Shown here in pieces: positions 1 through 39,532 of a stretch of DNA of 39,925 nt. The stretch is from Candidatus Poseidonia sp. (GTDB taxonomy: Archaea > Thermoplasmatota > Poseidoniia > Poseidoniales > Poseidoniaceae): NCBI GenBank assembly GCA_022426155.1, contig JAKMEE010000028.1, positions 119,442 to 159,366 of the forward strand, read 5' to 3'. The position numbers and the translations under genes are program-made. Numbering within the stretch: the stretch's first letter is position 1; every line of letters begins with the position of its first letter. Below the pieces are notes generated by a model. That model did no database searches, was not told the DNA's origin, and worked only from the letters and a program-made list of their open reading frames with translations.

Positions 1-455
1 GTGATGAGGACAAGTGCGCTCATGGAGAGGGTCATCATGTTCATGTCGACATCAAAATATGTGGTGACTGCGATGAAATATGCTGAAAATCCGATGAGCG
101 CAAAGGCTGATTTCAACAAGAACGATGCCCAAAGTCCAAGGCCACTGATGGTGCCAATGAGGGGGCCGTATGTACGTTGAAGATACACGTAAGAGCCGCC
201 ACTCGAAGGCATTCCAGATGCGAGTTCGGATTTGGATAATGCCCCTGGGAGGACTACTGATGCTGCGAGAAGGTAGGCAATCCATATTCCGGGTCCCATG
301 ATTTCCGCGGCGAAGGTTGGGGTCACGAAGATTCCAGGCAACATTGCCGAGAGTGAAATGATGACCACTCCCGCCAAACCAATCGTTCGGGAAAGCGTTG
401 ATTTGAGGTCATCAGTTAAACTCTGAATCAGTGAAGGCTTGTGCGGCAATTTCAT
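1..455 (-). CDS. APC-family amino acid permease, N-terminal part (cut by window edge)
   Basis: An open frame from ATG at 455 runs off the left edge; 151 codons are visible. It starts MKLPHKPSLIQSL and quickly enters hydrophobic segments: about residues 25-46 (TIGLAGVVIISLSAMLPGIF), 53-70, and 105-130. The GxxGxxIxxxxxMLPG region followed by a helix with PGALSKSELAS and SGGSYVYLQR is typical of the first three helices of APC-superfamily amino acid permeases, where the second segment includes the conserved 'P.SGG.Y.Y' motif. The protein would sit in the cytoplasmic membrane and import amino acids or amines by ion symport or exchange. It lies downstream of and on the same strand as the dioxygenase genes, but 107 bp separate them and it has its own TATA-like box, so co-transcription is uncertain. 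Substrate cannot be read from this fragment. Confidence 0.85.
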   Translation of the reverse strand, partial: MKLPHKPSLIQSLTDDLKSTLSRTIGLAGVVIISLSAMLPGIFVTPTFAAEIMGPGIWIAYLLAASVVLPGALSKSELASGMPSSGGSYVYLQRTYGPLIGTISGLGLWASFLLKSAFALIGFSAYFIAVTTYFDVDMNMMTLSMSALVLI

Positions 456-561: not shown

Positions 562-1980
562 TCATTGGCCCAAATGCAGGATGACTTTCATCTCAACTGC
601 AATGGGCGTGGGCAGTGCATCAATGGCGAGCGTCGTACGTGTTGGTCCAACCAACCCAAGGGTTTCTGCCCAAACTTCATTGTAGCCCGCGAAGTCTCGC
701 TTCATATCCACCAGGAATGTGGTGACATCGACGATTTGTTCCATGGAGGCACCAGCTTCCTCCACAATTCGTCGAACATTCTCAACCACTGCGTGTGTCT
801 GAGCCTTGATGTCGTAGTCCATCGGTTCACCTTCTTTGTCATGAATTGGCCCGCCGGGGATGGCATTGGTTCCTGGTTGACGAGGCCCTACTCCTGAAAG
901 AAACAGCATGTCTCCCACGCGACGAGCGTGAGGATAAGCCCCCACTGGTTTTGGTGCGGACTCTGTATTCACCGATCCTTCGGCTTTGGTGGGTTCCCAG
1001 AGTTCAGGGCCCGAAGATTTGGATTCCATCGCCTCAACAATGTCCTCCCCATTTTCGTTGGTTTCAGCAGTATCAAGAACACCTCGCTCTCCGTGGAAGT
1101 ATTCAACATCATCCTCATCGTATTCCTTGTCACCTTGTCCAGATGGTGTAGGGTCAAGGTGGACAACGGCTCCACCAGCTCCATGTATTGCCTCGTAAGC
1201 AAGAACTTGACCTGTGAGGTCGTTGCGATTTCCATTCATGGCGGAAAGCCACCACATCGGCTTAAAAGCCACCACTTTGCGAACACGGATTTGTTGTTGG
1301 ATGGTTCGAGAGAGTTGCCCAACATCTTCCAATCTCCCTTCCGAGAGGAATTCCAGAATCTTTCGATTCCATTCATCGTCTTTGAGGGAGTGAATTCGGT
1401 CATCTCCCGCTTCAATGAATTCGGTAAACATTCTGTTAGAGAGTGACATAGCTGTAATGGCCACCGCCTTACGACCGGTTGATTTGACTACGTCCAAACA
1501 TGCTTTTGCCATCACCGTCGTTTCACTCCGATTCGCATAAACATTGGAAGAGACAATCACTGCGGGAATGATATTGTCTGGGTTGAGAAGCGTAAGTGCA
1601 ACCACGGACCCCACATCAATGGGGAATCCTTTGTAATTCACGCAGCGACTTTGTAAACCACGCTCATGGTTTGCCTGGTTCCAAGCATGGGCGAATTGAG
1701 CGTCAATGTTGAATGAATAATGGATGGAGCCGAGGTCATGAAAGTCGTGGTCGACCATCACCCATTCTGGATTAGGGTCGGCTTGCAATTGGTGCCCAAT
1801 GATGGATGGCCAGGTGGTCGAATAAATGATCAAGAGATCTGCTTCGAGCTCCTTGATGGTGTTTGCAGCCTCATCCATGGCGGCACGAAGCCGAGACCAA
1901 CCTGGATTCTGTTCGGGTGCCAAGACGGTGTGGGGGTGAACCGGCACCACAAAGGAGGCGACAATTTCTCCTTCGCTCAC
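562..1980 (-). CDS. Fusion: class III extradiol dioxygenase non-catalytic (alpha, AmnA-like) subunit + RidA/2-aminomuconate deaminase-like domain
   Basis: This 472-residue protein has a LigB-type extradiol dioxygenase domain at about 1-290, an acidic, poorly ordered linker at about 290-344 and a complete RidA/YjgF domain at 345-472. The LigB part keeps an HPHT near its N terminus, but the second metal-ligand site reads STTW where the partner gene has SPHW. This fits a structural alpha subunit without iron. The RidA part keeps the family arginine (in GPTRTT, about residue 448) and glutamate (in AVEMK, about 463). RidA relatives include 2-aminomuconate deaminase (AmnD), which acts two steps after ring cleavage in the 2-aminophenol pathway. 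I chose GTG at 1980 because it overlaps the upstream stop as GTGA and follows GAGGAGG; a more upstream ATG at 2013 would overlap the neighbour by 37 bp. The fusion is inferred to join ring cleavage and deamination in one complex. Confidence 0.8.
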   Translation of the reverse strand: MSEGEIVASFVVPVHPHTVLAPEQNPGWSRLRAAMDEAANTIKELEADLLIIYSTTWPSIIGHQLQADPNPEWVMVDHDFHDLGSIHYSFNIDAQFAHAWNQANHERGLQSRCVNYKGFPIDVGSVVALTLLNPDNIIPAVIVSSNVYANRSETTVMAKACLDVVKSTGRKAVAITAMSLSNRMFTEFIEAGDDRIHSLKDDEWNRKILEFLSEGRLEDVGQLSRTIQQQIRVRKVVAFKPMWWLSAMNGNRNDLTGQVLAYEAIHGAGGAVVHLDPTPSGQGDKEYDEDDVEYFHGERGVLDTAETNENGEDIVEAMESKSSGPELWEPTKAEGSVNTESAPKPVGAYPHARRVGDMLFLSGVGPRQPGTNAIPGGPIHDKEGEPMDYDIKAQTHAVVENVRRIVEEAGASMEQIVDVTTFLVDMKRDFAGYNEVWAETLGLVGPTRTTLAIDALPTPIAVEMKVILHLGQ

Positions 1981-2879
1981 GAATTTTCCTCCTCGTGTTT
2001 GTGACAAGGCCATTCTACGATGGCATTACCAGTGCCGATAATTGTTCCATATCCGTGAAGGATGGCAGGATAGTCTGGGACGTCGAGTGTGGAGAGCAGC
2101 CAAGATAAGCCACCTCCATCGCTCTCTGCAATCGCTTGTTCTGTGAATTCAGGCATCTCATCGAGAATTCTCTGTGCCTCTCCATCTCTCATGTATTTGA
2201 TCATCCGCATATCCCAAAGGTGCATGGCATGACTGGTGATATGTTCTTTGCTCATGTCTTCGGGTAATTCGGATTCCGTCGTGAAGTGACGATGGGAAAG
2301 TGAATTGCTTGCGAGTACGACCACACGCTTTCCACTCGCTTCAATGGCTCGTCGTGTTGCTTTCCCCAGTTCGATCATCATTTCTTGCATGACTTCAACA
2401 GAATAATATGCAGTGGAACGATTGCTCGAAAGAACGACCAATGGCTTATCCCATTCTGGGTTGAACAAATGTCCAGTGGTAATGGTTCCGTAATCGACAC
2501 GGAAGTCTGGATTTTCCATCATCTTCACGGGCATTCCAGATGCTTGTGCTTCGTCATGAATTGCTTTTGCAAGATCCACATCGATGGAAAGGTCGTAATG
2601 GTAGCGGAATAAATTCGGGAAGACTGGGTCAACCGAGAGGCTTTTGAAATTTGGAAGGCCTAAGAAATGGGTTCCGACATAGGTTTGCCAGTGCGGTGAA
2701 AGCAAAACGATGGCATCGTATTCAATATCTGCAAGAGATTCTCTGAGGCGTTCATAGCCCCATCGTAGTTGTTCCCAACCTCCTTCAGCAACCGGTTCGT
2801 TTTGCGGCGGATTTTCTGCGTACACCAAATGCGGTGGGTGCGGTGCTAAACACCCTGCGACAATTTTGCCTCCGCCCAT
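1977..2879 (-). CDS. Class III extradiol dioxygenase catalytic subunit, 2-aminophenol 1,6-dioxygenase beta (AmnB)-like
   Basis: A 300-residue LigB-family enzyme. Family knowledge: 2-aminophenol 1,6-dioxygenase beta binds Fe(II) through His13, His62 and Glu251, with His195 and Tyr129 in the active site. Here each has a counterpart displaced by exactly one residue: His14 (in APHPPH), His63 (in SPHW), Glu252 (in AIAESDGGG), His196 (in SLSHRH) and Tyr130 (in VDYGT). Length and spacing therefore match this subfamily closely. It would open the ring of an ortho-aminophenol-type substrate with O2 to give an aminomuconate semialdehyde. It is translationally coupled (GTGA) to the alpha-RidA fusion. A weak TATA-like GATTTAGG lies about 26 bp before the ATG on the minus strand. 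The exact substrate (2-aminophenol, a carboxylated analogue or another catechol) is not determined by sequence alone. Confidence 0.85.
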   Translation of the reverse strand: MGGGKIVAGCLAPHPPHLVYAENPPQNEPVAEGGWEQLRWGYERLRESLADIEYDAIVLLSPHWQTYVGTHFLGLPNFKSLSVDPVFPNLFRYHYDLSIDVDLAKAIHDEAQASGMPVKMMENPDFRVDYGTITTGHLFNPEWDKPLVVLSSNRSTAYYSVEVMQEMMIELGKATRRAIEASGKRVVVLASNSLSHRHFTTESELPEDMSKEHITSHAMHLWDMRMIKYMRDGEAQRILDEMPEFTEQAIAESDGGGLSWLLSTLDVPDYPAILHGYGTIIGTGNAIVEWPCHKHEEENS

Positions 2880-5159: not shown

Positions 5160-6605
5160 TTAGCGTTGAACACAGACATTGGTGAGTTCGGAAAAGAAGT
5201 TCATTGACCAGAGGCCGCCTTCCCGACCAACTCCTGATTGCTTGACTCCTCCAAAGGGTGTTCTCAAATCACGGTTTAGCCATGTGTTCACCCAAACGAT
5301 TCCGGAATCCATTCTCTGAGCGAATGCGTGACCCCGATTGGCAGAAGCCGTCCACACTGAGCCTGCTAATCCATAATCCGTTGCGTTGACCATGGCCACA
5401 GCTTCGTCTTCATCGTTGAATCGATGAAGGGTTACAACGGGGCCGAAAATTTCCTCGGTGGCCGTTCGGCACGAGATCGGCAATCCTGCGATGACTGTGG
5501 GCCGGATGAAGGCACCTTGGGAGGGGAGGTTCGGAAATGGGACTTGAGCGGAAGTACCACCTGCAATCACCCTGCCACCCTCTTCAAGACCCAGTGTGAT
5601 ATAGGATTCAACTTTTGACTGGTGGTCTCTTGAGATAACGGCACCCATTTGCGTTTGTTCGTCTTGTGGGTCTCCAACTACTAAGGCATTCACAGCTTCA
5701 ACAAAACGTTGTTCGAATTCATCATAGATGGCATTATGAACCAGGATTCTTGAACCAGCCAGACACACTTGACCCGAGTTGGTGAATGACGCCCTGACCA
5801 GGTCATCCATAATGGAATCAAGTGGAGCATCGTCAAGCAACACAGTGGCATTTTTGCCACCCAATTCCAATGAGAGTTTCTTGAACATCGGCGCGGCCGT
5901 TGCTGCAACGATTCGGCCGGTGGCCGTTCCACCGGTGAAAGAGATGGCTTGGATGTCTGGATGTTCCACGATGGCCTGTCCCACATCCGGTCCTAGCCCA
6001 TGAACGAGATTGAAGACTCCATGTGGTAATCCAAGTTCAGCCATGGTTTCAGCTAAGAGGTTGGCAGTTAACGGTGTCATTTCTGATGGTTTGGCTACAA
6101 TGGTGTTGCCCATGAGAAGGGCGGGGGCAACTTTCCATGAGAGAAGGTACAAGGGCAGATTCCAGGGAGTGATGAGTCCGACACAACCAACGGGTGAACG
6201 ATGAACGTGGTTGACAGCTCCGTTTGCTTCATACTGCAAATTGGGCAACTCGGTCGCGTGTTCAGCAAAAAAGCGAAAATTTGCTACGGAACGATAGGCA
6301 TCAACCCGACGTGATAGAGAAATGGGCTTGCCTGTGTCAAGCGTTTCCAATCGAGCAATATCCTCAGATTTTTCTTCGAGAACATCAGCGATTTTTTCGA
6401 GCCATTCAATCCGCTCCTCGAGGGTTGTCGATTTCCATCCAGGTAATGCATTGCAGGCTGCTTGTGTGGCCAAAGCAACATCTTCTGCTTTGGAAAGCGG
6501 TAGTTGAGTGATCACCTCTCCGGTGGCCGGATTTGTGGTATCCATCAATGAACCAGATACGGCTGGAACAAAGACTCCATTGATGAAATTGCGCAACGGT
6601 TGCAC
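5160..6605 (-). CDS. NAD(P)+-dependent aldehyde dehydrogenase, 2-hydroxy-/2-aminomuconate semialdehyde dehydrogenase type
   Basis: A full-length ALDH of 481 residues that would oxidise an aldehyde to the acid. Catalytic residues are visible: Asn149 in TPWNLP, Glu247 in LELGGKN and Cys281 in GQVCLAG. The C-terminal segment WLNRDLRTPFGG followed by GVGREGG and NFFSELTNVCV is characteristic of 2-hydroxymuconate (XylG) and 2-aminomuconate (AmnC, ALDH8A1) semialdehyde dehydrogenases, where an arginine in this segment holds the substrate carboxylate. This matches the nearby AmnA/AmnB-like genes. The start is the GTG at 6605: GGAGGTG lies five bases before it, and the upstream asparaginase-like gene stops two bases earlier, so the ribosome binding site lies inside that gene's last codons. 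A longer ATG start at 6632 is less likely. Confidence 0.88.
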   Translation of the reverse strand: MQPLRNFINGVFVPAVSGSLMDTTNPATGEVITQLPLSKAEDVALATQAACNALPGWKSTTLEERIEWLEKIADVLEEKSEDIARLETLDTGKPISLSRRVDAYRSVANFRFFAEHATELPNLQYEANGAVNHVHRSPVGCVGLITPWNLPLYLLSWKVAPALLMGNTIVAKPSEMTPLTANLLAETMAELGLPHGVFNLVHGLGPDVGQAIVEHPDIQAISFTGGTATGRIVAATAAPMFKKLSLELGGKNATVLLDDAPLDSIMDDLVRASFTNSGQVCLAGSRILVHNAIYDEFEQRFVEAVNALVVGDPQDEQTQMGAVISRDHQSKVESYITLGLEEGGRVIAGGTSAQVPFPNLPSQGAFIRPTVIAGLPISCRTATEEIFGPVVTLHRFNDEDEAVAMVNATDYGLAGSVWTASANRGHAFAQRMDSGIVWVNTWLNRDLRTPFGGVKQSGVGREGGLWSMNFFSELTNVCVQR

Positions 6606-6607
6606 AT

Positions 6608-7723
6608 TTACACCTCCATTTGGTAATTCCATCGATCACGATCAGGATCCCATTCATCCCATGTTGGGACGGTTTCAAGAATGTCAACATAATGTTCTGG
6701 GACGATGCCGGGGACGATGAAGGCCTTCTGTCGATGAAGTGGATAGGGGTTCCTCAAGTCGACTCCCAACACGCCGAGGAGGGCTCGTGCAACGTACCAT
6801 GTCGCTTGTGAATTCCATCCGTGTGCGATCTTCACCACGATGCCCAAACCCTTCGGATAATCAGGGTGTTCGATGGCCATCCCCAGGAGCCCATCAGCAC
6901 CTTCTTTGGCGATAACACGGCCTTCGCCTGCTTTGAGAATTGTCGAATCCAATCGATTGAAGCCCCCCACCAAGTCAGGATGGCGAATCATGGCTTCCCA
7001 AATCCAATCATCATCTTTGTCTCGCACCAATCCTGCATAGATCTGGGCAAGTTCTGAAACGGTGTTGGATACGGTTGGTAGGCCACAGCCGTCTTTGGCA
7101 ATTCGCAAAGGTGTCCAATTCGCTCCCAGATAAGTGCGTAATTGTTCCATATAAGCCCCAAAGACTTCGTGCGAAGGGAGTGTGTATCCAGCACGGTTCC
7201 ATCCCTTGAGGCGACATCCCTTGAGGATAGCAGCGTGCTCACCCGAGCAGGTATGGTACCATCTTCGGGGTCGTCGCACCTGTCGTCCAAATTGAATGAG
7301 AGGTACATCAAGGGGCGTCAACATCAGCGGCCATTCGGGTTCGCTCAAAAGAGATTGGGCGGCTGCAACATGTTCGGTATCGCCGTTGTGAGAGGCGACA
7401 GAGATGGCTTTTTGCTCCCACGAGCAATCACCTAATTCCTCAGTGAAGGCTTTGAGCATGAAGGGTTTCATCATTGAGCGTCCATAGCAAAGGACATTTC
7501 CACCAAATGAATGGATGACTTCATCCCCATGCGCCCAGGCAACAGCTCCGTGGATTGTGGTTTCTGAAACACCGTTACGACGGTAATCGACCAGAGGCTC
7601 CCATGCTACTTCTCGTCCTGTTGGAATTCCTTCGACCTGTTCGCCGAGAGGAGAATTTGGAAACATTGAGGACCCTGGTTTTCCAGGTTGAACTGCCGAG
7701 AATGTTTCGTGTTGATGATTCAT
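6608..7723 (-). CDS. Asparaginase II-family amidohydrolase
   Basis: A 371-residue protein of the Rhizobium etli-type asparaginase II family (PF06089), with the motifs SHNGDTEHV, CSGEHAAIL, KDGCGLPT and IAKEGADGLLG in the expected order. Known members hydrolyse L-asparagine to aspartate and ammonia in the cytosol; here the position between an LLM monooxygenase and a muconate-semialdehyde-type ALDH suggests it may act on an amide intermediate instead (inference). ATG at 7723 overlaps the upstream stop as ATGA, which supports this start over a frame open to 7831. Its stop is two bases before the ALDH GTG, so the genes are translationally coupled. Confidence 0.85.
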   Translation of the reverse strand: MNHQHETFSAVQPGKPGSSMFPNSPLGEQVEGIPTGREVAWEPLVDYRRNGVSETTIHGAVAWAHGDEVIHSFGGNVLCYGRSMMKPFMLKAFTEELGDCSWEQKAISVASHNGDTEHVAAAQSLLSEPEWPLMLTPLDVPLIQFGRQVRRPRRWYHTCSGEHAAILKGCRLKGWNRAGYTLPSHEVFGAYMEQLRTYLGANWTPLRIAKDGCGLPTVSNTVSELAQIYAGLVRDKDDDWIWEAMIRHPDLVGGFNRLDSTILKAGEGRVIAKEGADGLLGMAIEHPDYPKGLGIVVKIAHGWNSQATWYVARALLGVLGVDLRNPYPLHRQKAFIVPGIVPEHYVDILETVPTWDEWDPDRDRWNYQMEV

Positions 7724-8982
7724 GCAGTCCCTCCATTCAGGCGTTCTTCCACCTTCGGGACGACGAGTTCCATGTAAGCCGACATGTTGCGGCATACTCG
7801 ATCTGAATCGTGATTGAAGAAATCGAACCACGCCATGATTCGGTCATCCGGGTGGAAACGACTCAACATTTGTTCCACAACCTCATCGACGTTTCCAATC
7901 AAGGCATTATTTGCCGCCCGGGTTACTTTCGCAGGGTCAATCGTACCTTCGAGAGCATTCCAATACTCTCCAAGGGCGGCATTCGCTTCCTCGTGGGCAG
8001 CAATGGATTGCTCTTCTGGTGTGAGGCCTTGCTCAGCATTCAGGAATACGAAAGAAGTGCGAGGCATATCACGTCGTTGCCAAGATCCACCTTCTGGATG
8101 GAAGACCTCCGACATTCGGTCATGTGTGGCATCGATTACTTCCGGGGCGGTGATGGAGAGATTGAACACTTTCACAGGGAGGAACGTGTTCACAAAGGTT
8201 TGAGCCCGTGGGTCATGTGTTCCAGCGACCAGTTCAAGCAGACTCCTTCGGAAGTTTTGGGGGATGATTTTGAGTTGTTCAAAGACATAACGTGGATGAA
8301 TTGTGATCCGTTCAGGAGCATCTCTGAGCGCTTCAAATTCCATGGCTGCATCTTGTACAGCCTCCCAATCATCATCGCTTCTAAAATTCTCACGGGTCAA
8401 TGTGGTTGGGCGGATGTCGCTGGTGCTGATCTCATCGCCACGCAATAAGCGGAGGAAGATTTCAGCAGCTTCCATGAAAATTTGACCACGGAGGGCTGGC
8501 CATGCTGCTTCCTCTATGGCATTTCGAGGCACGATTCCGTACGGCCGGGCCATGAATTCAAAGCGACCTGCGGAGAAGCCCACGTGAAGTTTACGAGTTT
8601 CCCCGGGATCAAGGCCATGAAGTGTGAGGACGTTAGCGATTCGTTCTGCTTGAGCGATGGGCCCCCCGGAAGCAAGAATCGAGACCACTGCACTGCCAAC
8701 TTCGATGTTGGTGGTGCGACGAAAAGATTCCGATGCAAGTTGTGGGAAATCTGTGCACAAGCCAACTTCACCTTGCCAATGTGGAACAACAGGTTTGGAG
8801 TTTTTCTTCTGTGATTCCGTAGAAAGGTGGGCTTGTGCAATCCATGCTACGCCAAATCCCAATTTATCAGCATGGGTGAGTTGTTGGAAGTAATTGGTGA
8901 ACATTGTTTGTTCAGAGGGGATGTGCCCATGTTCATCAGGGGTTTGTGAAATCGAGAAGAAGATGTCATGCTCCATGTCCAC
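7720..8982 (-). CDS. LLM-class (luciferase-like) flavin-dependent monooxygenase
   Basis: A 420-residue luciferase-like TIM barrel. Visible features are an N terminus reading DIFFSISQTP, then the LGFGVAWIAQAHL segment typical of the second strand, VGSAVVSILASGGPIAQAERIANV, and HVGFSAGRFEFMARPYG. Such enzymes use FMNH2 and O2 and normally depend on a separate flavin reductase, which is not in the window. In this cluster it may hydroxylate or cleave an aromatic or heterocyclic substrate before ring opening (inference). GTG at 8982 or ATG at 8976 are both possible: GGAAGGA precedes the first, GGTGA the second. It overlaps the asparaginase-like gene by four bases. Confidence 0.82.
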   Translation of the reverse strand: MDMEHDIFFSISQTPDEHGHIPSEQTMFTNYFQQLTHADKLGFGVAWIAQAHLSTESQKKNSKPVVPHWQGEVGLCTDFPQLASESFRRTTNIEVGSAVVSILASGGPIAQAERIANVLTLHGLDPGETRKLHVGFSAGRFEFMARPYGIVPRNAIEEAAWPALRGQIFMEAAEIFLRLLRGDEISTSDIRPTTLTRENFRSDDDWEAVQDAAMEFEALRDAPERITIHPRYVFEQLKIIPQNFRRSLLELVAGTHDPRAQTFVNTFLPVKVFNLSITAPEVIDATHDRMSEVFHPEGGSWQRRDMPRTSFVFLNAEQGLTPEEQSIAAHEEANAALGEYWNALEGTIDPAKVTRAANNALIGNVDEVVEQMLSRFHPDDRIMAWFDFFNHDSDRVCRNMSAYMELVVPKVEERLNGGTA

Positions 8983-9029: not shown

Positions 9030-9881
9030 TCATTGCGAGCCCTCATCCTGTTCTTTTGGAGTATTTTGGAGATTTGTGAGGGCTTCAATTCGCTGCTTGA
9101 CTTGAACAGGACCAGGTATGTCTTCTGCCATGTAAGCGTGCAAGCAGTCGGAAAGTACCAACATTGCACTCTCAAAGTCTTCACGGATTTCGGCTAAATC
9201 AGCAAGGCCCCAACGTGCAACCAATTGGCCGCTAAGACTTCCTAACTCCTGGGCGCGTTGTAATGAATCCTGAAAGAGGTCATTGGCAGCCCCAAATTCT
9301 CCGATAGTAGCCTGACTGTGGGCGAGATCTGCAACAGCTTCCATTTGGCCAACATGATCCTTCAATTTGTTGAGCAGTTCGAGCCGTTCGGTACCCAATG
9401 CGATGGCAGTGTCGATATCATGCCGTCGCTTCGCGACTGCAATCAAGACGGCGTAACCGTAACTCATGCCGCGGAGGTCGCCGATTTTCTCTCTCAAGCG
9501 CAGAGCTCTGGTAGCGGTGGCATGTGCCACATCGAGTGACCCTTCAGCCAATTGAATGAGCGCAATATGATGGTGCAGAGCAGCGGCTAAGGGCTCACCT
9601 TTCTCATGGGTCTCGACTTCTTCAACCAGCGAGATGAATTGTTGAAGCGAAGCCTCAATCATTTTCAAACCCTCAAAGCGAGCCCAGCCACGTTCTGTAT
9701 CATCCTCAGCGACTGTCGTCGCATGATTCATGAGACGATCCATGAGGGATGTATCGCCCAATTCCGATGCAAGGGGGAGTAAGCGTAGAGCGAGTGATGT
9801 GTTGATTCCATCCATGGCACCGCCTGCCGTGAGCATGTCCAGCACTTGTCGGGCGCGTTCCGGAGAGAGTTCGTTTTGCAC
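9030..9881 (-). CDS. TPR-repeat helical protein
   Basis: A 283-residue all-helical protein. From about residue 90 it contains TPR-like pairs, e.g. ALHHHIALIQLAEGSLDVAH, then SYGYAVLIAVAKRRHDIDTA, AVADLAHSQATIGEFGAAND and ARWGLADLAEIREDFESA, each with the small-residue/Tyr/Ala positions of TPRs. No enzymatic motif is seen. TPRs usually mediate protein contacts; here it may scaffold or regulate the pathway. The GTG at 9881 is preceded by AGGTGA with four bases of spacing, and the SDR stop lies nine bases before it, so the two are probably one transcript. Confidence 0.75.
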   Translation of the reverse strand: MQNELSPERARQVLDMLTAGGAMDGINTSLALRLLPLASELGDTSLMDRLMNHATTVAEDDTERGWARFEGLKMIEASLQQFISLVEEVETHEKGEPLAAALHHHIALIQLAEGSLDVAHATATRALRLREKIGDLRGMSYGYAVLIAVAKRRHDIDTAIALGTERLELLNKLKDHVGQMEAVADLAHSQATIGEFGAANDLFQDSLQRAQELGSLSGQLVARWGLADLAEIREDFESAMLVLSDCLHAYMAEDIPGPVQVKQRIEALTNLQNTPKEQDEGSQ

Positions 9882-9890
9882 GAAATCACC

Positions 9891-10706
9891 TCAGATTGAT
9901 CGCAACCGTCCGCCGTCAACAGCCAAACTCACGCCACGAATTCCACCGGATGCTGGAAGGGCAAGGAAGGTAATGGCACTGGCGGTTTCAAGAGGGTCAA
10001 TGAGGCGTCCAATTGGTACTTGGGCCATCCATCCAGAATGAATTTCCTGTGCACTTTTTCCTGTGCGTTCCTGAATTGAATTTGCCAGAGAACCAAGGCG
10101 GGAGGTGTCAGTAAATCCAGGAAGGACGTTGTTGATGGTGATACAAGGTGCCAATTCGTTTGAGAGAGATTTTGCCCATGATGCCATAGCGCCACGCAAG
10201 GTATTGGACAATCCGATGTTTGGGATGGGTTCCTTCACCGAAGTTGAGATGATTTGGATGATTCGTCCAAATCCTGCTCGCTCCATGCCAGGTGCCAAGG
10301 TTTTGACCAATGTGTGGGCGGCGTGGAGGTGTCGTTTGAAGGGCGCTTCAAAGTCTTCAATTTCATTTGAGAGCAACGGTCCACCCGGGGGTCCGCCAGC
10401 GTTGTTGATCAGTACGTGGACAGGACCACGCTGGGCCATCATCTCATTGACGGCCGAAGGAATTGCTTTTGTAGCTTCAAGGTCGATTGGCATGATTCCA
10501 TGAGTTCCCTTGCCGAGAAGTTCCAATTCTCCAACGAGGCGCTCCAGTGCTTCTTCATTGCGTGCGGCAACGGTCACATTTGCACCTGCTTTCGCCATCA
10601 TTTTTGCAGCAGCAGCACCGATTCCTTGACTAGCGCCGCATACCAAAACATGCTTACCCTCAAGGGAGTTGGTTGCATAGGGATAGTCATTGCCAAGCAA
10701 GTCCAT
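9891..10706 (-). CDS. Short-chain dehydrogenase/reductase family protein lacking the catalytic tyrosine
   Basis: A Rossmann-fold SDR of about 271 residues with the nucleotide motif CGASQGIG, the NNAGG motif and the C-terminal GGIRGVSLAVDGGR typical of 3-oxoacyl-ACP-reductase-like SDRs. After the conserved serine region (IISTSVKEP) the usual YxxxK is replaced by SNTLRGAM, so the catalytic Tyr is absent. A subgroup of SDRs with this replacement is known. It may bind NAD(P)H but catalyse a different reaction or be regulatory. ATG at 10706 is preferred; a TTG at 10754 would overlap the upstream hydrolase. The next gene (TPR) begins ten bases after the stop. Confidence 0.82.
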   Translation of the reverse strand: MDLLGNDYPYATNSLEGKHVLVCGASQGIGAAAAKMMAKAGANVTVAARNEEALERLVGELELLGKGTHGIMPIDLEATKAIPSAVNEMMAQRGPVHVLINNAGGPPGGPLLSNEIEDFEAPFKRHLHAAHTLVKTLAPGMERAGFGRIIQIISTSVKEPIPNIGLSNTLRGAMASWAKSLSNELAPCITINNVLPGFTDTSRLGSLANSIQERTGKSAQEIHSGWMAQVPIGRLIDPLETASAITFLALPASGGIRGVSLAVDGGRLRSI

Positions 10707-10744
10707 AGCGTTCCCACACGGCGCTATGTCATAGGGGCTTCGCT

Positions 10745-11491
10745 TCACAACCAATCAAGAATCGCATTGAGTTGAACCAACCAATCATCGCTTGCTACAT
10801 CAATGATATCGTAATGATTTCCAGGAAGCCATATCTTCTGAACGCTAGCGCCTTTTGCTTCCATCACCCTCGCATAGGTTTCAGATTGGTCCAATGGAAC
10901 ATCGACGTCTTCTTCTCCATGAAATAACAAAACCGATGTCTGAGGTGGATGATTGACTGGATTTAACTGGTCCCATATCTGTTGTGCCTCTTCGGGGGCT
11001 GAGCCGATCCATTGCCGAATAGCATCGCCTTCATCGGAGAGTTTTGAATGATCGGCACCCACCAAATCCGTGAGTGGCGCTTGAGCGATGGCCAGCCATG
11101 GTTTCCGCTCTGCCTTGGCGGCCAGAAGTAAGGCGAGCTGGCCTCCTGCGGAATGGCCCATGACCATCGAGCGAGTGATGTCGATACCAGGCAATAACGC
11201 AAGTTGGCCCCATGCCCGAAGGACATCCGAGAGAGTGTCCATCCAAACCCCAGTTTCATCGGACTTCCATCGTTTAAATTCGATATTCCAAGCAGCAACG
11301 CCTGCTTCTGCAAGATCTTCGGCGATGGGTTGCATCAAATCCAGATTGTATTGTTCCTTCCAGAACCCTCCATGAATCAACATGATGCATGGAATGCCCT
11401 GGCCTTTTTGGAAAGGAGAGGGGTCATCGGGCATGTACAGGTCAGCATGTTGCCACGCTTCAGCACCCCACTGCATGCGGTCAACGGCCAT
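10745..11491 (-). CDS. Alpha/beta hydrolase, kynurenine formamidase (arylformamidase)-like
   Basis: A 248-residue alpha/beta hydrolase. It has the oxyanion-hole motif HGGFW at 40-44, the nucleophile elbow GHSAGG with Ser114, the acid in HGEEDVDVP (Asp195) and His226 in GNHYD. The HGG(F/Y)W motif plus this short length is typical of esterases in the kynurenine formamidase group, which hydrolyse N-formylkynurenine or related aryl amides. It is the first gene of the minus-strand block, with a divergent promoter region shared with the GDSL surface protein. An amide- or ester-releasing step that feeds the ring-cleavage enzymes is an inference. Substrate assignment is uncertain because carboxylesterases share the same motifs. 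Confidence 0.8.
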   Translation of the reverse strand: MAVDRMQWGAEAWQHADLYMPDDPSPFQKGQGIPCIMLIHGGFWKEQYNLDLMQPIAEDLAEAGVAAWNIEFKRWKSDETGVWMDTLSDVLRAWGQLALLPGIDITRSMVMGHSAGGQLALLLAAKAERKPWLAIAQAPLTDLVGADHSKLSDEGDAIRQWIGSAPEEAQQIWDQLNPVNHPPQTSVLLFHGEEDVDVPLDQSETYARVMEAKGASVQKIWLPGNHYDIIDVASDDWLVQLNAILDWL

Positions 11492-11576: not shown

Positions 11577-14483
11577 GTGCGTCGTCAAGCATGGCTACTC
11601 CTCATTGTTTTGCTTGCTCCGAGCATGACGCTTTCATCTGCGACCGGTGCCCGTTCGATGGAACTTGATATGACGATTGAACGGTATGACTGGTGGTCAA
11701 ATGAAACGATAGAAATCGATTTGATTCTACGCAATGCACCGTTCAACCAAATGTTGAACGCCAGTTGGATTCTCACCGATGAAGGAGGTCAAGTCTTAAC
11801 CGGTTCATCTGCTTTCCAGGCCTCTGGGACGTTCACCACGGTTACCATTCAACTCGAAGACTTCTATCGTGGCCATCATTTCCAATCTTTCTCTATTACA
11901 GTCTTTGATGAATCAAATACCTCTCTTGGCCAAGGTGACATTTCTTTCACGGTCTTTCAGCAAGTAGTGATGCCATCTGTAGGCCAACTGCTTTCTTTCG
12001 GAGACTCACTTTCAGACATGGGGAATGCCAAGGCTTCATTTCTCAACACACCCGACGTTCCACCCTATTGGCAAGGAAGATTTTCCAACGGCGAAGTATG
12101 GCTAGGGTACCTGTACGATGCGTATGGATTGACTCCATCCATCGGTTCGGGGATTTCGAGCACAGGAGATAATAGAGCGTTTGGTGGCGCACAAACAGGC
12201 AGTGGTTACGCCTACCTTGTCATCCCCAATGTGGGGTCTCAAATCACAAGTTACCTTGCCAATGTTCAATCAACCATCCCAAGCAATGCTGTTGTGAACC
12301 TTTGGGCAGGTGGAAATGATTTCCTGTACGGTACGGCAAATGCAGATACAATCGCTACCAATATGGAATCTCATATACGTCAACTCTCTACCGCAGGCGC
12401 CCAAACCTTTGTGATTCCGAATCTCCCCCCTCTCGAAGACACCCCTGAAATTCAAAGCAGAAGTTCTTCTGTCCAAACATCCATTCGTAATGAGGTGATT
12501 GATTACAACAGCCAACTCGCATCGTTAATTGTCTCGTTGCGTGCTGAACTGGGCATCAACATCTACAGCATTGATGCTTGGACGATTTTCGGAGATATCA
12601 TGCTAAACAAGGAATCTCTTGGGTTGACCAATACTCAGGATGCAGCCTGTTCGGGAGGTAGTACTTTGTTGCCTCTTCCAATCTGCAACAGTGCGAGTGC
12701 TGTGGCTTCAAATGTCGATGAATATGTGTTCTTCGACAAAGCACACCCAACTCGAATCATGCACACATTCATCGGAGCCTTTGCGATTGAATCCATTGGT
12801 TCTGCGGATACCGATGGTGATGGTATTGTGGATTCTTTTGATATCTGCCCCTGGACGGACGAACAAGAAACTCCGAACGCCCAAGGATGTGGATGGTCTC
12901 AACTTGATGATGACAACGATAGCGTCCTCAACGGAGATGATATCTGTCCGAATACCACGCTCGATACAATCGTTGACGAAAACGGGTGTTCGTCCAGTCA
13001 GCGAGATTCAGATGGGGATGGGTTGAACGATTTCTTTGACCCCTGCCCGTTCAGTCCGAATCTTTGGGACCATGATGAAGATGGTTGTGCTGATGTTGAA
13101 GACCTTGATGACGACAACGATGGGGTTCTTGATGACATGGATGCTTGCCCCCAAGGGCTCATCGGCGTGCACATCAATGATCTCGATTCGGATGGATGCG
13201 CCGATGTGGAAGACTCAGACATTGACGGTGATGGCCTTGATAACACCAACGAAGCATCGGTTGGAACCGATGAACGGAACCCAGATACCGATGCTGATGG
13301 GAGTTTGGATGGAGATGATGCCTTCCCATTGGACCCTACAGAATGGGCGGATACAGATCGGGACGGATGCGGCGATAACCGGGACGTGTTTCCTTTTAAC
13401 CCAGAAGAATGCGATGATGCGGACGAAGATGGTTATGGTGACAATCAAGATGTCTTTCCAGCAGATGAAACGGAATGGTTCGACCTCGACGAGGATGGCG
13501 TAGGTGATAATTCAGATGCGTGTCCATTTGTTTTTGGCCTGTCAGTTGATCCACAGGGGTGTCCTGACAGAGACGGAGATGGATACGCCGATACCAATGA
13601 CGCTTTTCCAAATGATGGAGATGAATGGTCAGATCGAGATGGTGATGGTTACGGTGATAATGAGGATCTCTTCCCAGACGATGAAATGGATTGGGCTGAC
13701 AAAGACAATGACTCCTATGGGGATTATCGTGACGCCTTTCCTTCCGACCCATCTGAATGGAACGATACCGATGGTGAAGGCGTAGGGGATAATGCCGATA
13801 TGTTCCCACTAGATCCCAATGAATGGAATGACTCCGATGGCGATGGTTGCGGTGATAACCAGGACGTGTATCCACTCAATCCATTCGAATGCTATGACAG
13901 TGATTTTGACGGTGTTGGTGATAATGAAGATGCGTTCCCATTGAGCGCTCTTGAATCAAAAGATTCGGACAGCGATGGAGTCGGTGACAACACCGATTTA
14001 TTCCCTAACGACCCCAAGGCTACCATTGACAGTGATGGAGATGGGGTTGCCAATGCTTACGACGCCTTTCCAAAAAGTTCACTCTTGGATTCATGGGCGG
14101 ATGTTTTCATTCGATTGCTTGGTGCATTGGGACTCATTGGCGGGACCGCATGGCTTCTCCGCCGTCAGACGATGAGCAATCAAGATACCATCGATCTCTT
14201 CACTCAAGAACATGCCTTCGAATTCAATGTTTCAAAACCGTTGAATCCACCTTCGATGGATGCATTTTCACCACCTCCTCTAGTACCCTCTGAAATTCCT
14301 CCTCTTGAGCAGTCCACAGAGTTGATTGTTCAGACTCCTCAAGAGAACTCCCTTCCAGTATCCGTCTCTTCGAATTCACTGAACATGCCAGAGAATTTTG
14401 AGGCTGATGCCTTGCATTGTGTCGACTCACCCCCCCCTACTGCCGAGGGTGGTTGGACGGATCTTGGGGACAATTGGGGTTGA
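11577..14483 (+). CDS. Giant exported GDSL lipase/esterase with calcium-binding repeat stalk and C-terminal anchor
   Basis: 968 residues. Residues 1-24 are a signal peptide (MRRQAWLLLIVLLAPSM...ATGA). A beta-rich region runs to about 130. The GDSL hydrolase domain has FGDSLSD with Ser144, the block III Asn247 in AGGND and the Asp387/His390 pair in DKAHPT, so the triad is complete. From about 410 to 834 there is an aspartate-rich DxDxDG array of thrombospondin type 3 style, expected to bind Ca2+ and form a rigid stalk. A transmembrane helix at about 843-863 is followed by RRQ and a 105-residue cytoplasmic tail rich in Pro and Ser. The enzyme would be displayed outside the cell and hydrolyse esters (lipids or acetylated glycans). 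The start is GTG at 11577, directly before the signal peptide, in a leaderless-like promoter setting. The gene is divergent from the catabolic block. Confidence 0.85.
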   Translation: MRRQAWLLLIVLLAPSMTLSSATGARSMELDMTIERYDWWSNETIEIDLILRNAPFNQMLNASWILTDEGGQVLTGSSAFQASGTFTTVTIQLEDFYRGHHFQSFSITVFDESNTSLGQGDISFTVFQQVVMPSVGQLLSFGDSLSDMGNAKASFLNTPDVPPYWQGRFSNGEVWLGYLYDAYGLTPSIGSGISSTGDNRAFGGAQTGSGYAYLVIPNVGSQITSYLANVQSTIPSNAVVNLWAGGNDFLYGTANADTIATNMESHIRQLSTAGAQTFVIPNLPPLEDTPEIQSRSSSVQTSIRNEVIDYNSQLASLIVSLRAELGINIYSIDAWTIFGDIMLNKESLGLTNTQDAACSGGSTLLPLPICNSASAVASNVDEYVFFDKAHPTRIMHTFIGAFAIESIGSADTDGDGIVDSFDICPWTDEQETPNAQGCGWSQLDDDNDSVLNGDDICPNTTLDTIVDENGCSSSQRDSDGDGLNDFFDPCPFSPNLWDHDEDGCADVEDLDDDNDGVLDDMDACPQGLIGVHINDLDSDGCADVEDSDIDGDGLDNTNEASVGTDERNPDTDADGSLDGDDAFPLDPTEWADTDRDGCGDNRDVFPFNPEECDDADEDGYGDNQDVFPADETEWFDLDEDGVGDNSDACPFVFGLSVDPQGCPDRDGDGYADTNDAFPNDGDEWSDRDGDGYGDNEDLFPDDEMDWADKDNDSYGDYRDAFPSDPSEWNDTDGEGVGDNADMFPLDPNEWNDSDGDGCGDNQDVYPLNPFECYDSDFDGVGDNEDAFPLSALESKDSDSDGVGDNTDLFPNDPKATIDSDGDGVANAYDAFPKSSLLDSWADVFIRLLGALGLIGGTAWLLRRQTMSNQDTIDLFTQEHAFEFNVSKPLNPPSMDAFSPPPLVPSEIPPLEQSTELIVQTPQENSLPVSVSSNSLNMPENFEADALHCVDSPPPTAEGGWTDLGDNWG
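13317..14075 (+). repeat. 66-bp (22-residue) tandem repeats inside the GDSL protein gene
   Basis: About eleven consecutive units follow the pattern D-(A/V/L)-F-P-x-D-P-x-E-W-x-D-x-D-x-D-G-x-G-D-N-x, each 22 codons; one unit is longer (28 residues, with ...GLSVDPQGCPDRDG). Before it lie less regular DxDxDG motifs from about 12807. This is a coding repeat; DNA identity between units is only partial, which suggests an old array under selection for the protein motif. Confidence 0.85.
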
Positions 14484-38267: not shown

Positions 38268-38340
38268 GGGCGCTTAGCTCAGTTGGAAGAGCGTCTGGTT
38301 TGCAACCAGAAGGCCGGGGGTTCAAATCCCCCAGCGTCCA
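38268..38340 (+). tRNA. trnA: tRNA-Ala (anticodon UGC)
   Basis: 73 nt fold into a full cloverleaf: acceptor GGGCGCT/AGCGTCC, D stem GCTC/GAGC, anticodon stem TCTGG/CCAGA with loop TTTGCAA (anticodon TGC) and T arm GGGGG-TTCAAAT-CCCCC. Base 3 and base 70 form the G3:U70 wobble pair that is the alanine identity element; the discriminator is A. CCA is not encoded. No intron. The 3' end is the attachment site of the element that starts to its right. Confidence 0.98.
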
Positions 38341-39532
38341 CTTTGCCTCTTATCGTTGAGCATTGTGTTCGCTTTGCCATGCTCATTGCACAGGTTGTCG
38401 AATGGAGAGCGTTGGCCCCAGCGTCCACCACCCTCGAAGAGTCCATAACCCCTGAATGGGATGCTGCTCGGAAGTTACTTGAGTGCGTCCTAAATCCTCC
38501 GTCTCGCAGAATAAATGCAGGTTGGGCTGTCCCTTCTGAGGAGATCTTCGTCGCAAAACAGTGTGCCTTTCTCCATGCTGCTTCACGTGCCGGAGTGAAG
38601 ATGAGTTCAGAGTAGTGCTTTTCGATTGTAGCGATTGTATCTCCGAGAACTCCAGCCACATCCTCGTATTGACAACCACTGTTGAGATATCGCATGGCGA
38701 TACTGTGACGATATGAGTGACAAGGAAACTTTCGAATCTCTATGTTGCCTTCTTTAGAGGTCTTGTCTCGAACGTATGCGAGCCATTTTGCAATTGTTGC
38801 ATCGGTGATGTGCAAATTGTTTTTCTTATCAGTGCCTGATTTCTGTGCACGGGATTTTGGGAAGAGATACACATCTCCGTCCTTGCACTTACTCACAATA
38901 TCCTTGTAACGTTCAAAGAAAGGTATCAGTCTTGGTTCAATCTTCGTCTGACATCGTTTCCGATTCTTGTGTGCTGGGAAGCGAATCATACCTTCATCCA
39001 AGTCGATGCGCTCCCAGGTGAACAATGCACTGTCGGATCGTCGGGGGCCAATCGTGTAGTGTAGGAAATGAGCAATCGCTCTCTCGATTCGGTCTCCTTC
39101 GTTGAACATCTTGATGGCAGTTTGGTTCATTGCTTCCATTTCCTCATTGGTCCACCAGCGGATGATGTTCTCGTCCTCACCCGGCTTCCACTTTTCCACG
39201 AAATCGACAATTGAATGAAGATTCAGTGCCTTTAGCATAAGCATGAGGGCTTCCTTGCGTTTCTTGATTGACATCTCTGCGATGACATTCTTGCTCCGAG
39301 TCAAACCCATTCGGCATCGCTCAACCAACGCCAACCAGTTATCGGGACTGATATCCTCAATCGACTGAATTCCTTGATCTTGGAAGTCGAGACACACCCA
39401 CAACATAGCATTCGCAATTTTTCTTGAAGTGCCACCACGATGGTTCCTCAATTCGCTTTCTTGTTTTCCTGCATTCCATGCTGTTCGCCACGACGGGTCT
39501 AATTCATCCGAGAAGTACATCTTCCTTGCCAT
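38279..39532 (-). CDS. int: Tyrosine recombinase (integrase) of an element integrated at tRNA-Ala
   Basis: 417 residues. Catalytic residues of the tyrosine recombinase family are visible: Arg164 in GPRRSDS, a Lys near 189, His272 and Arg275 in CHSYRH, and the nucleophile Tyr307 in EKHYSEL; the third His position reads Asp298 (LGD). An N-terminal SAM-like core-binding domain covers about 25-115. After Tyr307 the protein continues 110 residues; the last 20 (GGFEPPAFWLQTRR...) are the antisense of the tRNA gene, so the tail after about 330 is probably not functional integrase sequence. ATG at 39532 is the first start; the frame is open upstream to 39679 without a standard start codon. The element would extend to the right. 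Confidence 0.88.
   Translation of the reverse strand: MARKMYFSDELDPSWRTAWNAGKQESELRNHRGGTSRKIANAMLWVCLDFQDQGIQSIEDISPDNWLALVERCRMGLTRSKNVIAEMSIKKRKEALMLMLKALNLHSIVDFVEKWKPGEDENIIRWWTNEEMEAMNQTAIKMFNEGDRIERAIAHFLHYTIGPRRSDSALFTWERIDLDEGMIRFPAHKNRKRCQTKIEPRLIPFFERYKDIVSKCKDGDVYLFPKSRAQKSGTDKKNNLHITDATIAKWLAYVRDKTSKEGNIEIRKFPCHSYRHSIAMRYLNSGCQYEDVAGVLGDTIATIEKHYSELIFTPAREAAWRKAHCFATKISSEGTAQPAFILRDGGFRTHSSNFRAASHSGVMDSSRVVDAGANALHSTTCAMSMAKRTQCSTIRGKVDAGGFEPPAFWLQTRRSSN
38329..38428. repeat. 13-bp direct repeat of the tRNA-Ala 3' end (candidate attachment cores)
   Basis: CCCCAGCGTCCAC occurs at 38329-38341 (T arm, acceptor end and one base) and again at 38416-38428, 87 bp apart and in the same orientation. 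Between them lies a 7-bp inverted repeat TGAGCAT/ATGCTCA (38357-38363, 38379-38385). A 13-bp exact copy next to a tRNA used by an integrase is unlikely by chance and fits an attachment-site core duplicate or a remnant of an earlier event. Confidence 0.55.

Follow-up and report, generated by a model that had tools for sequence, protein, structure and literature searches.

A 2-aminophenol-type dioxygenase alpha subunit fused to a 2-aminomuconate-deaminase-type domain in Poseidoniales, and a gene cluster with a possible link to tryptophan

The closest described counterparts of the system treated here are the 2-aminophenol 1,6-dioxygenases AmnBA and CnbCab (PDB 3VSG, 8IHG), in which the beta subunit has the four catalytic residues and the alpha subunit none, and the 2-aminomuconate deaminase AmnE of Pseudomonas sp. 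AP-3 (PDB 6IZH). In the known amn pathway the semialdehyde must be oxidised by an aldehyde dehydrogenase before deamination; the late steps of the kynurenine pathway likewise run via 2-aminomuconate semialdehyde and 2-aminomuconate. A preliminary description of the DNA analysed here, made by a model from the letters and open reading frames, had held that alpha subunit and deaminase are separate proteins in known amn systems, and in the three bacterial loci that were inspected they are indeed encoded by separate genes, in the order RidA-beta-alpha. The DNA in question, called the window throughout, is a stretch of 39,925 nucleotides of Candidatus Poseidonia sp. (contig JAKMEE010000028.1, positions 119,442 to 159,366; genome bin of 1.99 Mb, 89% complete). 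Its beta and alpha subunits resemble AmnBA and CnbCab in their catalytic residues, but the gene order is beta-alpha-deaminase and the alpha subunit carries the deaminase at its C-terminus. This fusion, for which the evidence is good, adds a new variant to a known enzyme pair, and the gene set that surrounds it is the larger finding. Probably, the fused protein works with the adjacent beta subunit and with an aldehyde dehydrogenase of the same cluster on a 2-aminophenol-like ring that stems from the reaction of tryptophan 2,3-dioxygenase (TDO), its two activities being tethered to each other.

Composition of the fused protein

The frame had been placed at positions 562-1980 by the preliminary description; the coordinates stand, but the strand is minus (1980..562, product of 472 amino acids), the plus strand holding five stops over the same interval. 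A program-made list of open reading frames begins the frame at 2013 (483 aa). This start was rejected: many relatives begin at residue 12 of the longer product or carry a stop within its first stretch, and with the query trimmed at residue 12 nearly all of them match without a stop. The GTG at 1980 was therefore taken as the start codon; it overlaps the stop of the beta subunit gene by 4 nt.

Residues 1 to about 302 of the 472 form an alpha-type LigB domain with an acidic C-terminal tail (1075..1980; features written in this way all lie on the minus strand), which is followed by a variable linker (about residues 303-330; 991..1074) and a RidA domain of the 2-aminomuconate-deaminase type (about residues 331-472; 562..990). 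Pfam recognises both domains, LigB (PF02900) with 31.3 bits against a cut-off of 26.3 and RidA (PF01042) with 84 bits against 27.3. Among all PDB chains, the N-terminal part is most similar to the alpha subunits of 2-amino(-5-chloro)phenol 1,6-dioxygenases (7txy_A, 1.3e-39; 3vsg_A, 2.4e-39; third match, 5.8e-32), which outrank the beta subunits, and the C-terminal part to the 2-aminomuconate deaminase 6izh_A (1.5e-26); the RidA domain alone as query matches 6izh_A at 1.1e-27 and the next family member at 1.5e-21. The earlier proposal of an alpha subunit joined to an AmnD-type deaminase is thus borne out, one conserved chain holding both domains. The predicted structure of the fused protein (mean pLDDT 71, below 50 over most of residues 281-348) matches 3vsg_A with a TM-score of 0.90 by target length (Foldseek), while the predicted RidA fold matches the deaminase 6izh (1.6e-10) and generic RidA proteins (2dyy, 1.3e-10) about equally. 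Between the domain matches lie 23-91 amino acids in 19 intact fused loci. What had been described as an acidic linker is acidic, but only partly a linker: GDKEYDEDDVEYFHGERGVLD, which belongs to it, lies inside the alpha match that split alpha subunits also cover, and the true linker is the variable stretch C-terminal to this match.

The beta subunit gene (1977..2879; 8ihg_A, 6e-106) encodes conserved H14, H63, H196 and E252 at the positions of H13, H62, H195 and E251 of the CNB-1 beta subunit, the catalytic residues of that enzyme. None of the four is found in the fused alpha domain, nor in the alpha subunit of CNB-1, and the alpha gene adjoins the beta gene as in 2-aminophenol 1,6-dioxygenase; identity to the CNB-1 proteins is 52% for beta and 32% for alpha. 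The loss of a metal-ligand histidine noticed earlier is therefore real but no peculiarity of this protein since, judged by alignment with CNB-1, missing metal ligands are the normal state of an alpha subunit.

For AmnE, the closest structure to the RidA domain by sequence, the accessible text of PMC6742747 names Ser35, Gly36, Glu88, position 103, Arg117 and Lys135 as cleft residues. They correspond to S362, G363, D418, N434, R448 and K465 of the fused protein, that is, the cleft is kept with one Glu to Asp replacement; position 103 is Asn in the aligned 6izh chain and is called Gln in that text. The RidA domain is complete with its Arg and Glu, as had been claimed, R448 and E463 being invariant among 12 fused sequences. 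Furthermore, by alignment, a long loop of the fused RidA domain is common to 6izh and missing from the next match, 2dyy.

Fused and split forms in archaeal genomes

Genomes and loci are referred to by codes (f, family; g, genus level; G, genome; L, locus), f1 being taken as Poseidoniaceae, f2 as the other Poseidoniales family and f3 as a Marine Group III-like family. A match to the fused protein was found in 183 of 193 genomes of the order. Fifty-five loci were read, 19 of them fused and 35 split; the remaining one (L074) was rejected as a fusion and dropped, its alpha match stopping at 205 and the frame then differing. All ten f1 loci among these are fused, and further reading of this family yielded 39 fused open reading frames, of which three duplicate the window gene and seven had a place among the 55 already; beyond the ten, the window and 29 further loci are thus fused, and every intact f1 locus read has this form. 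Seven of the 38 f2 loci are fused (g14 4/4, g18 2/4, g21 1/2) and 31 are split into adjacent genes; all four f3 loci are split. Outside the class, G216 and G246 carry the fusion, which adds families f22 and f31. The deaminase follows directly after alpha, fused or separate, in 55/55 classified loci. Fusion as a rule for the order was rejected because f2 is mostly split; coupling by fusion is therefore optional, a variant and not a requirement.

A second sample came from a scan with a profile of the luciferase-like monooxygenase (LLM) of the cluster, which gave 399 relatives, 80 of which were kept (43 titled Poseidoni-, 36 Euryarchaeota, one metagenome-assembled genome of Rhodobiaceae). Both alpha and RidA are present in 56 of these named loci, fused in all 56, and 24 are without one of the parts within the stretch. 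The two-domain architecture, suggested earlier from one locus, hence recurs across archaeal genomes (f1, part of f2, f22, f31), and an assembly error was rejected as its origin since it recurs in numerous genomes that are independent of one another and also in the Marine Group II chromosome CM001443.1 (L145), which is a single contig. In bacterial plasmids the fusion was not found: tblastn against 72,556 plasmids, chromosomes not being searched, returned 159 records, and the one that covers at least 80% of the query has RidA, beta and alpha as separate genes.

The passage between the two forms appears to have taken place repeatedly. A quick tree of alpha (58 rows, no bootstrap) requires at least three fused/split changes among archaeal rows, gain and loss not being distinguished; a RidA tree of the same kind requires four, only one of which is forced by strongly supported branches, and is weak, with two bacterial rows on very long branches. 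Relative to alpha, the frame of the deaminase has the same shift in 30 of the 31 split f2 loci, the exception (L076) having an in-frame stop. In 25 of the 31 the stop codon of alpha is contained in ATGA, GTGA or TTGA, so that one frameshift could fuse the two genes. Two genomes of one genus, G069 and G183, differ by an in-frame stop between the alpha and RidA parts.

In 19 of the 31 split f2 loci (among them L034:9288-9938, where Pfam finds the RidA domain only) the deaminase has an N-terminal segment with a glycine-rich hydrophobic stretch; such a segment also occurs within the linkers of two fused g14 proteins (L035, L086). As a guess, it might be a membrane or oligomerisation anchor.

The surrounding genes and a possible route from tryptophan

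On the minus strand of the window the order is alpha/beta hydrolase, SDR, TPR protein, LLM, a relative of class 3 asparaginases (here called AsnII), aldehyde dehydrogenase, LON-domain protein, PanB, beta, fusion, and amino-acid permease. An intact beta subunit beside the fusion and an AmnC-like aldehyde dehydrogenase are both present, the latter (5160..6632) having as its best model 2-hydroxymuconic semialdehyde dehydrogenase (544 bits, under the cut-off of 693). LLM (7720..8982), a divergent flavin monooxygenase proposed to be a Baeyer-Villiger enzyme, scores 23.7 bits with PF00296, below cut-off, and is assigned by its fold; AsnII (6608..7831), proposed to be a beta-aspartyl ester hydrolase, scores 161 bits with PF06089 and matches 8cly at 1.1e-22 in a profile search. 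The alpha/beta hydrolase (10745..11491; HGGFW motif) is a candidate N-formylkynurenine deformylase in the position where other lineages carry a formyltransferase-family protein. The SDR dehydrogenase (9891..10754; PF13561, 126.5 bits) is a conserved neighbour, and the TPR protein (9030..9881; family match) also belongs to the cluster. At the edge, the window cuts the permease and keeps its start (3..455; AA_permease_2), whose counterpart L033:17772-19199, adjoining the fusion gene there, has a C-terminal EF-hand pair.

If the presence or absence of LON is disregarded, 66 of the 80 named loci show the window order, in full or truncated; 13 have a different arrangement, and in one the hydrolase is replaced by the formyltransferase-family protein. 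Around LLM, all 12 f2 loci have formyltransferase-family protein, SDR, LLM, AsnII and aldehyde dehydrogenase. Near the SDR gene in 61 named loci stand the alpha/beta hydrolase (57), the unrelated formyltransferase-family protein (1) or neither (3, two at a contig edge), and never both; this exchange fits one shared step, the deformylation of N-formylkynurenine. The formyltransferase-family protein (e.g. L070:4036-4752) keeps Asn117, His119 and Asp154 in 8/8 sequences; in formyltransferases these residues are catalytic. Against such a role for the hydrolase speaks its PDB search, which found carboxylesterases and other hydrolases and no kynurenine formamidase.

The connection with tryptophan rests on the f3 loci and on co-occurrence. 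In L070 and L071, TDO, SDR, LLM, AsnII, aldehyde dehydrogenase, beta, alpha, RidA and the formyltransferase-family protein succeed one another on one strand with several overlaps (L071 having one extra gene ahead of beta); L069 shares this set, its TDO lying at the contig edge, and the contig of L215 (G326) breaks off in AsnII after TDO, SDR and LLM. TDO thereby heads the run in four of five f3 loci, the fifth contig (L072) starting at the AsnII gene. In G246 a TDO match (80.8 bits) lies upstream of LLM, AsnII, aldehyde dehydrogenase, beta and the fusion. In three f2 genomes (G001, G028, G048) a single contig carries both LLM and TDO, separated by about 20 kb. TDO is encoded in 111 of 115 Poseidoniales genomes. 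A sample of the phylum comprised 389 genomes, 126 Poseidoniales and 263 others (manual count of listed rows); among the 263, TDO occurs in 16 (one below cut-off), LLM in seven and a clear alpha in seven (G260, G270, G321, G399, G454, G216, G246). All seven LLM genomes have TDO and six have a clear alpha; the seventh is G326, where alpha is doubtful, its best match being only 4.4e-41 and the LLM contig ending in the AsnII gene. G260 has alpha without TDO or LLM on a contig starting at AsnII, and twelve weak matches (1.6e-15 to 7.6e-11) were taken as RidA-only from their E-values.

As a pathway that would start with TDO the system resembles the kynurenine pathway, but kynureninase and 3-HAO are nearly absent from the 115 Poseidoniales genomes. 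Kynureninase (TIGR01814) exceeds the cut-off in one (20 at E 0.001 or better) and 3-HAO (PF06052) in seven, strongly in only G013 and G056; in G056 it lies beside a T9SS-tail protein on a contig of 3.8 kb, which is likely a contaminant. KynB-type cyclase was found in 0/60 genomes, the controls matching in 8/14. FAD_binding_3 (PF01494), a family that includes KMO and is too general to separate it, is present in 60/60 with at most 85.5 bits. One f2 genome, G013 (L060:6088-7329, L064:8518-10166), has kynureninase and 3-HAO, the latter with an Amidohydro_2 neighbour, besides alpha and TDO, and may also have the canonical route. In several loci, proteins that by eye resemble haem A and haem O synthases lie near the gene of TDO, itself a haem enzyme (L053:4289-6405).

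A single-sequence search with LLM found no PDB match, a profile search 8k74 at 2.1e-4. Its model (pLDDT 84) matches luciferase-like monooxygenase folds at 1e-13 to 1e-10, among them luciferases and, 14th by E-value, a type II Baeyer-Villiger enzyme; the modelled fold would permit a Baeyer-Villiger role but is not diagnostic of the reaction or of FMN versus F420 as cofactor. A 47% relative is encoded on plasmid pCLA1 of Streptomyces clavuligerus (L189:12001-13227) and could offer a culturable organism for comparison; the other 12 key proteins are all missing from the 25 kb stretch around it.

AsnII belongs to the family of the class 3 L-asparaginases ReAV and ReAIV and keeps the R-S-x-x-K motif and the second Ser/Lys pair, with R118, S119, K122, S147 and K309 at the positions of Arg47, Ser48, Lys51, Ser80 and Lys263. 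According to the accessible text of PMC12292245, in ReAV the Ser acts as nucleophile and the Arg binds the alpha-carboxylate of the substrate; a protein so equipped could, by its sequence, hydrolyse a beta-aspartyl ester. It differs in the zinc site (Cys135, Lys138 and Cys189 of class 3), the Lys being replaced by Glu in the window protein; in the f3 loci L070 and L071 this position has Gln, and Ser and Asp take the place of the two Cys.

It is possible, and is put forward tentatively, that these genes constitute an undescribed route of tryptophan breakdown in Poseidoniales and some relatives. TDO would make N-formylkynurenine, the formyl group of which would be removed by the formyltransferase-family protein, a task that the alpha/beta hydrolase would have in most members of the window's family. 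LLM might then insert oxygen between the ring and the carbonyl of kynurenine in a Baeyer-Villiger oxidation, giving the 2-aminophenyl beta-ester of aspartate, and AsnII might hydrolyse the ester to L-aspartate and 2-aminophenol, the latter being the substrate to which the closest relatives of the two dioxygenase subunits point. The rest of the degradation would fall to AmnBA, the aldehyde dehydrogenase and the fused deaminase. If true, this route would replace KMO, kynureninase, 3-HAO and ACMSD, and it would explain the presence of an asparaginase relative with conserved aspartyl-binding residues next to a flavin monooxygenase.

Elsewhere in the window, a large protein of secreted appearance that begins like an SGNH lipase and has many Asp-rich repeats (11577-14483) and, near the right edge, a tyrosine-recombinase-like protein (38279-39532) were noticed by eye.

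Function, alternatives and significance

The non-catalytic alpha domain and the adjacent iron-bearing beta subunit would together form a class III extradiol dioxygenase that opens a 2-aminophenol-like ring, most likely one derived from tryptophan via TDO; the aldehyde dehydrogenase of the cluster would convert the semialdehyde by oxidation into 2-aminomuconate, from which the fused RidA domain would then remove the amino group. The preliminary description had envisaged a physical coupling of ring cleavage, its product and deamination by the fusion. A direct hand-over of the product is not supported: the aldehyde dehydrogenase step intervenes, the alpha domain has no metal ligands, and most f2 loci do without the fusion. 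Because the dehydrogenase acts between the two fused activities, tethering is proposed and not channelling; most likely, the flexible linker holds the deaminase at the dioxygenase such that unstable intermediates are handled close together. According to the accessible text of PMC6742747, 2-aminomuconate was too unstable to be obtained, which fits a benefit of tethering. A dimer-forming alpha2beta2 core, as in the CNB-1 enzyme, combined with a trimer-forming RidA domain would be expected to build a large assembly such as alpha6beta6.

Several observations weigh against the proposed function or its link to tryptophan. The residue Arg56, important for the hexamer of AmnE, aligns with a Glu of the fused protein, by which the RidA domain is perhaps a trimer, and the deaminase-like protein encoded next to the CNB-1 dioxygenase shows only 32% identity and has no counterpart of the loop common to the fusion and AmnE. 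No cluster gene adjoins TDO in the nine Poseidoniales TDO loci that were read, and a matched loss of TDO and alpha was looked for within Poseidoniales and not found; TDO occurs without an alpha match in G032, G050, G054, G075, G076 and G084, and the reverse holds for G009, G030, G088 and G104. The association of LLM with TDO among the 263 genomes (Fisher p = 7e-10) ignores kinship, five of the seven genomes belonging to one family. No downstream amn enzymes were identified: one PF01557 protein per genome was seen in 54 of 60, and DmpG_comm in none of the 60, its control being silent too.

Instead of a simple 2-aminophenol, the dioxygenase might act on a carboxylated or otherwise substituted one (3-hydroxyanthranilate, 3-hydroxykynurenine) in place of the cupin 3-HAO, with the deaminase acting on the matching muconate and unseen enzymes performing the KMO, kynureninase and ACMSD steps. 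The near-ubiquity of TDO and of FAD_binding_3 proteins, which makes a KMO conceivable, and the strong kynureninase and 3-HAO matches of G013, where an amidohydrolase lies beside 3-HAO, are compatible with this; it is nevertheless unlikely, as kynureninase and 3-HAO are so scarce elsewhere, as both subunits have their closest PDB relatives among 2-amino(chloro)phenol enzymes, and as LLM and AsnII would be left without a role. Even less probable is that the RidA domain is a generic imine/enamine deaminase which clears reactive by-products of the dioxygenase and has no part in the pathway. RidA proteins do have broad imine deaminase activity, the archaeal generic RidA 2dyy scores as well as 6izh by fold, and the divergent deaminase-like protein of CNB-1 points the same way; by sequence, 6izh is the best match by six orders of magnitude and shares the loop that 2dyy is missing, the domain keeps its place directly after alpha whether fused or not, and another RidA-like match is encoded elsewhere in the genome (C16, 1.4e-4).

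The fusion itself could also be devoid of functional meaning, a stop codon between two coupled genes having been lost by chance and the product tolerated as neutral. The overlapping stops of the split f2 loci, the single in-frame stop that separates G069 from G183 and the repeated changes on the alpha tree are all compatible with this; the uniformly fused state of intact f1 loci and the recurrence of the fusion in f22 and f31 are opposed to it and make this explanation rather improbable. Retained as the most probable view is that of a tethered deaminase acting in one pathway with the dioxygenase.

No published report of this fusion or of the tryptophan route was found in literature searches (supplements not covered). 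The main text of an archaeal fusion survey (PMC11237513) contains no RidA, LigB, dioxygenase or aminomuconate; the accessible text of an overview of Marine Group II (PMC6461757) mentions amino-acid degradation and neither tryptophan nor dioxygenase, and none of the terms sought is present in that of PMC9723583. A parallel is offered by the ARO microcompartment of Actinobacteria (PMC10470539), where, as far as its main text goes, the same early enzymes are kept together by a protein shell and fused proteins or fusions are not mentioned; in Poseidoniales the linkage is by gene fusion instead.

Poseidoniales (Marine Group II) are described in the accessible text of PMC6461757 as the planktonic archaea with the highest abundance in surface waters, without cultured members, and in that of PMC9723583 as presumed consumers of dissolved matter, for example lipids and peptides. 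A fused ring-cleavage/deaminase protein that is kept across a whole family ties a named chemistry to these organisms. If the tryptophan reading is true, the gene set would be a marker of oceanic aromatic amino-acid breakdown and would represent a new enzyme route.

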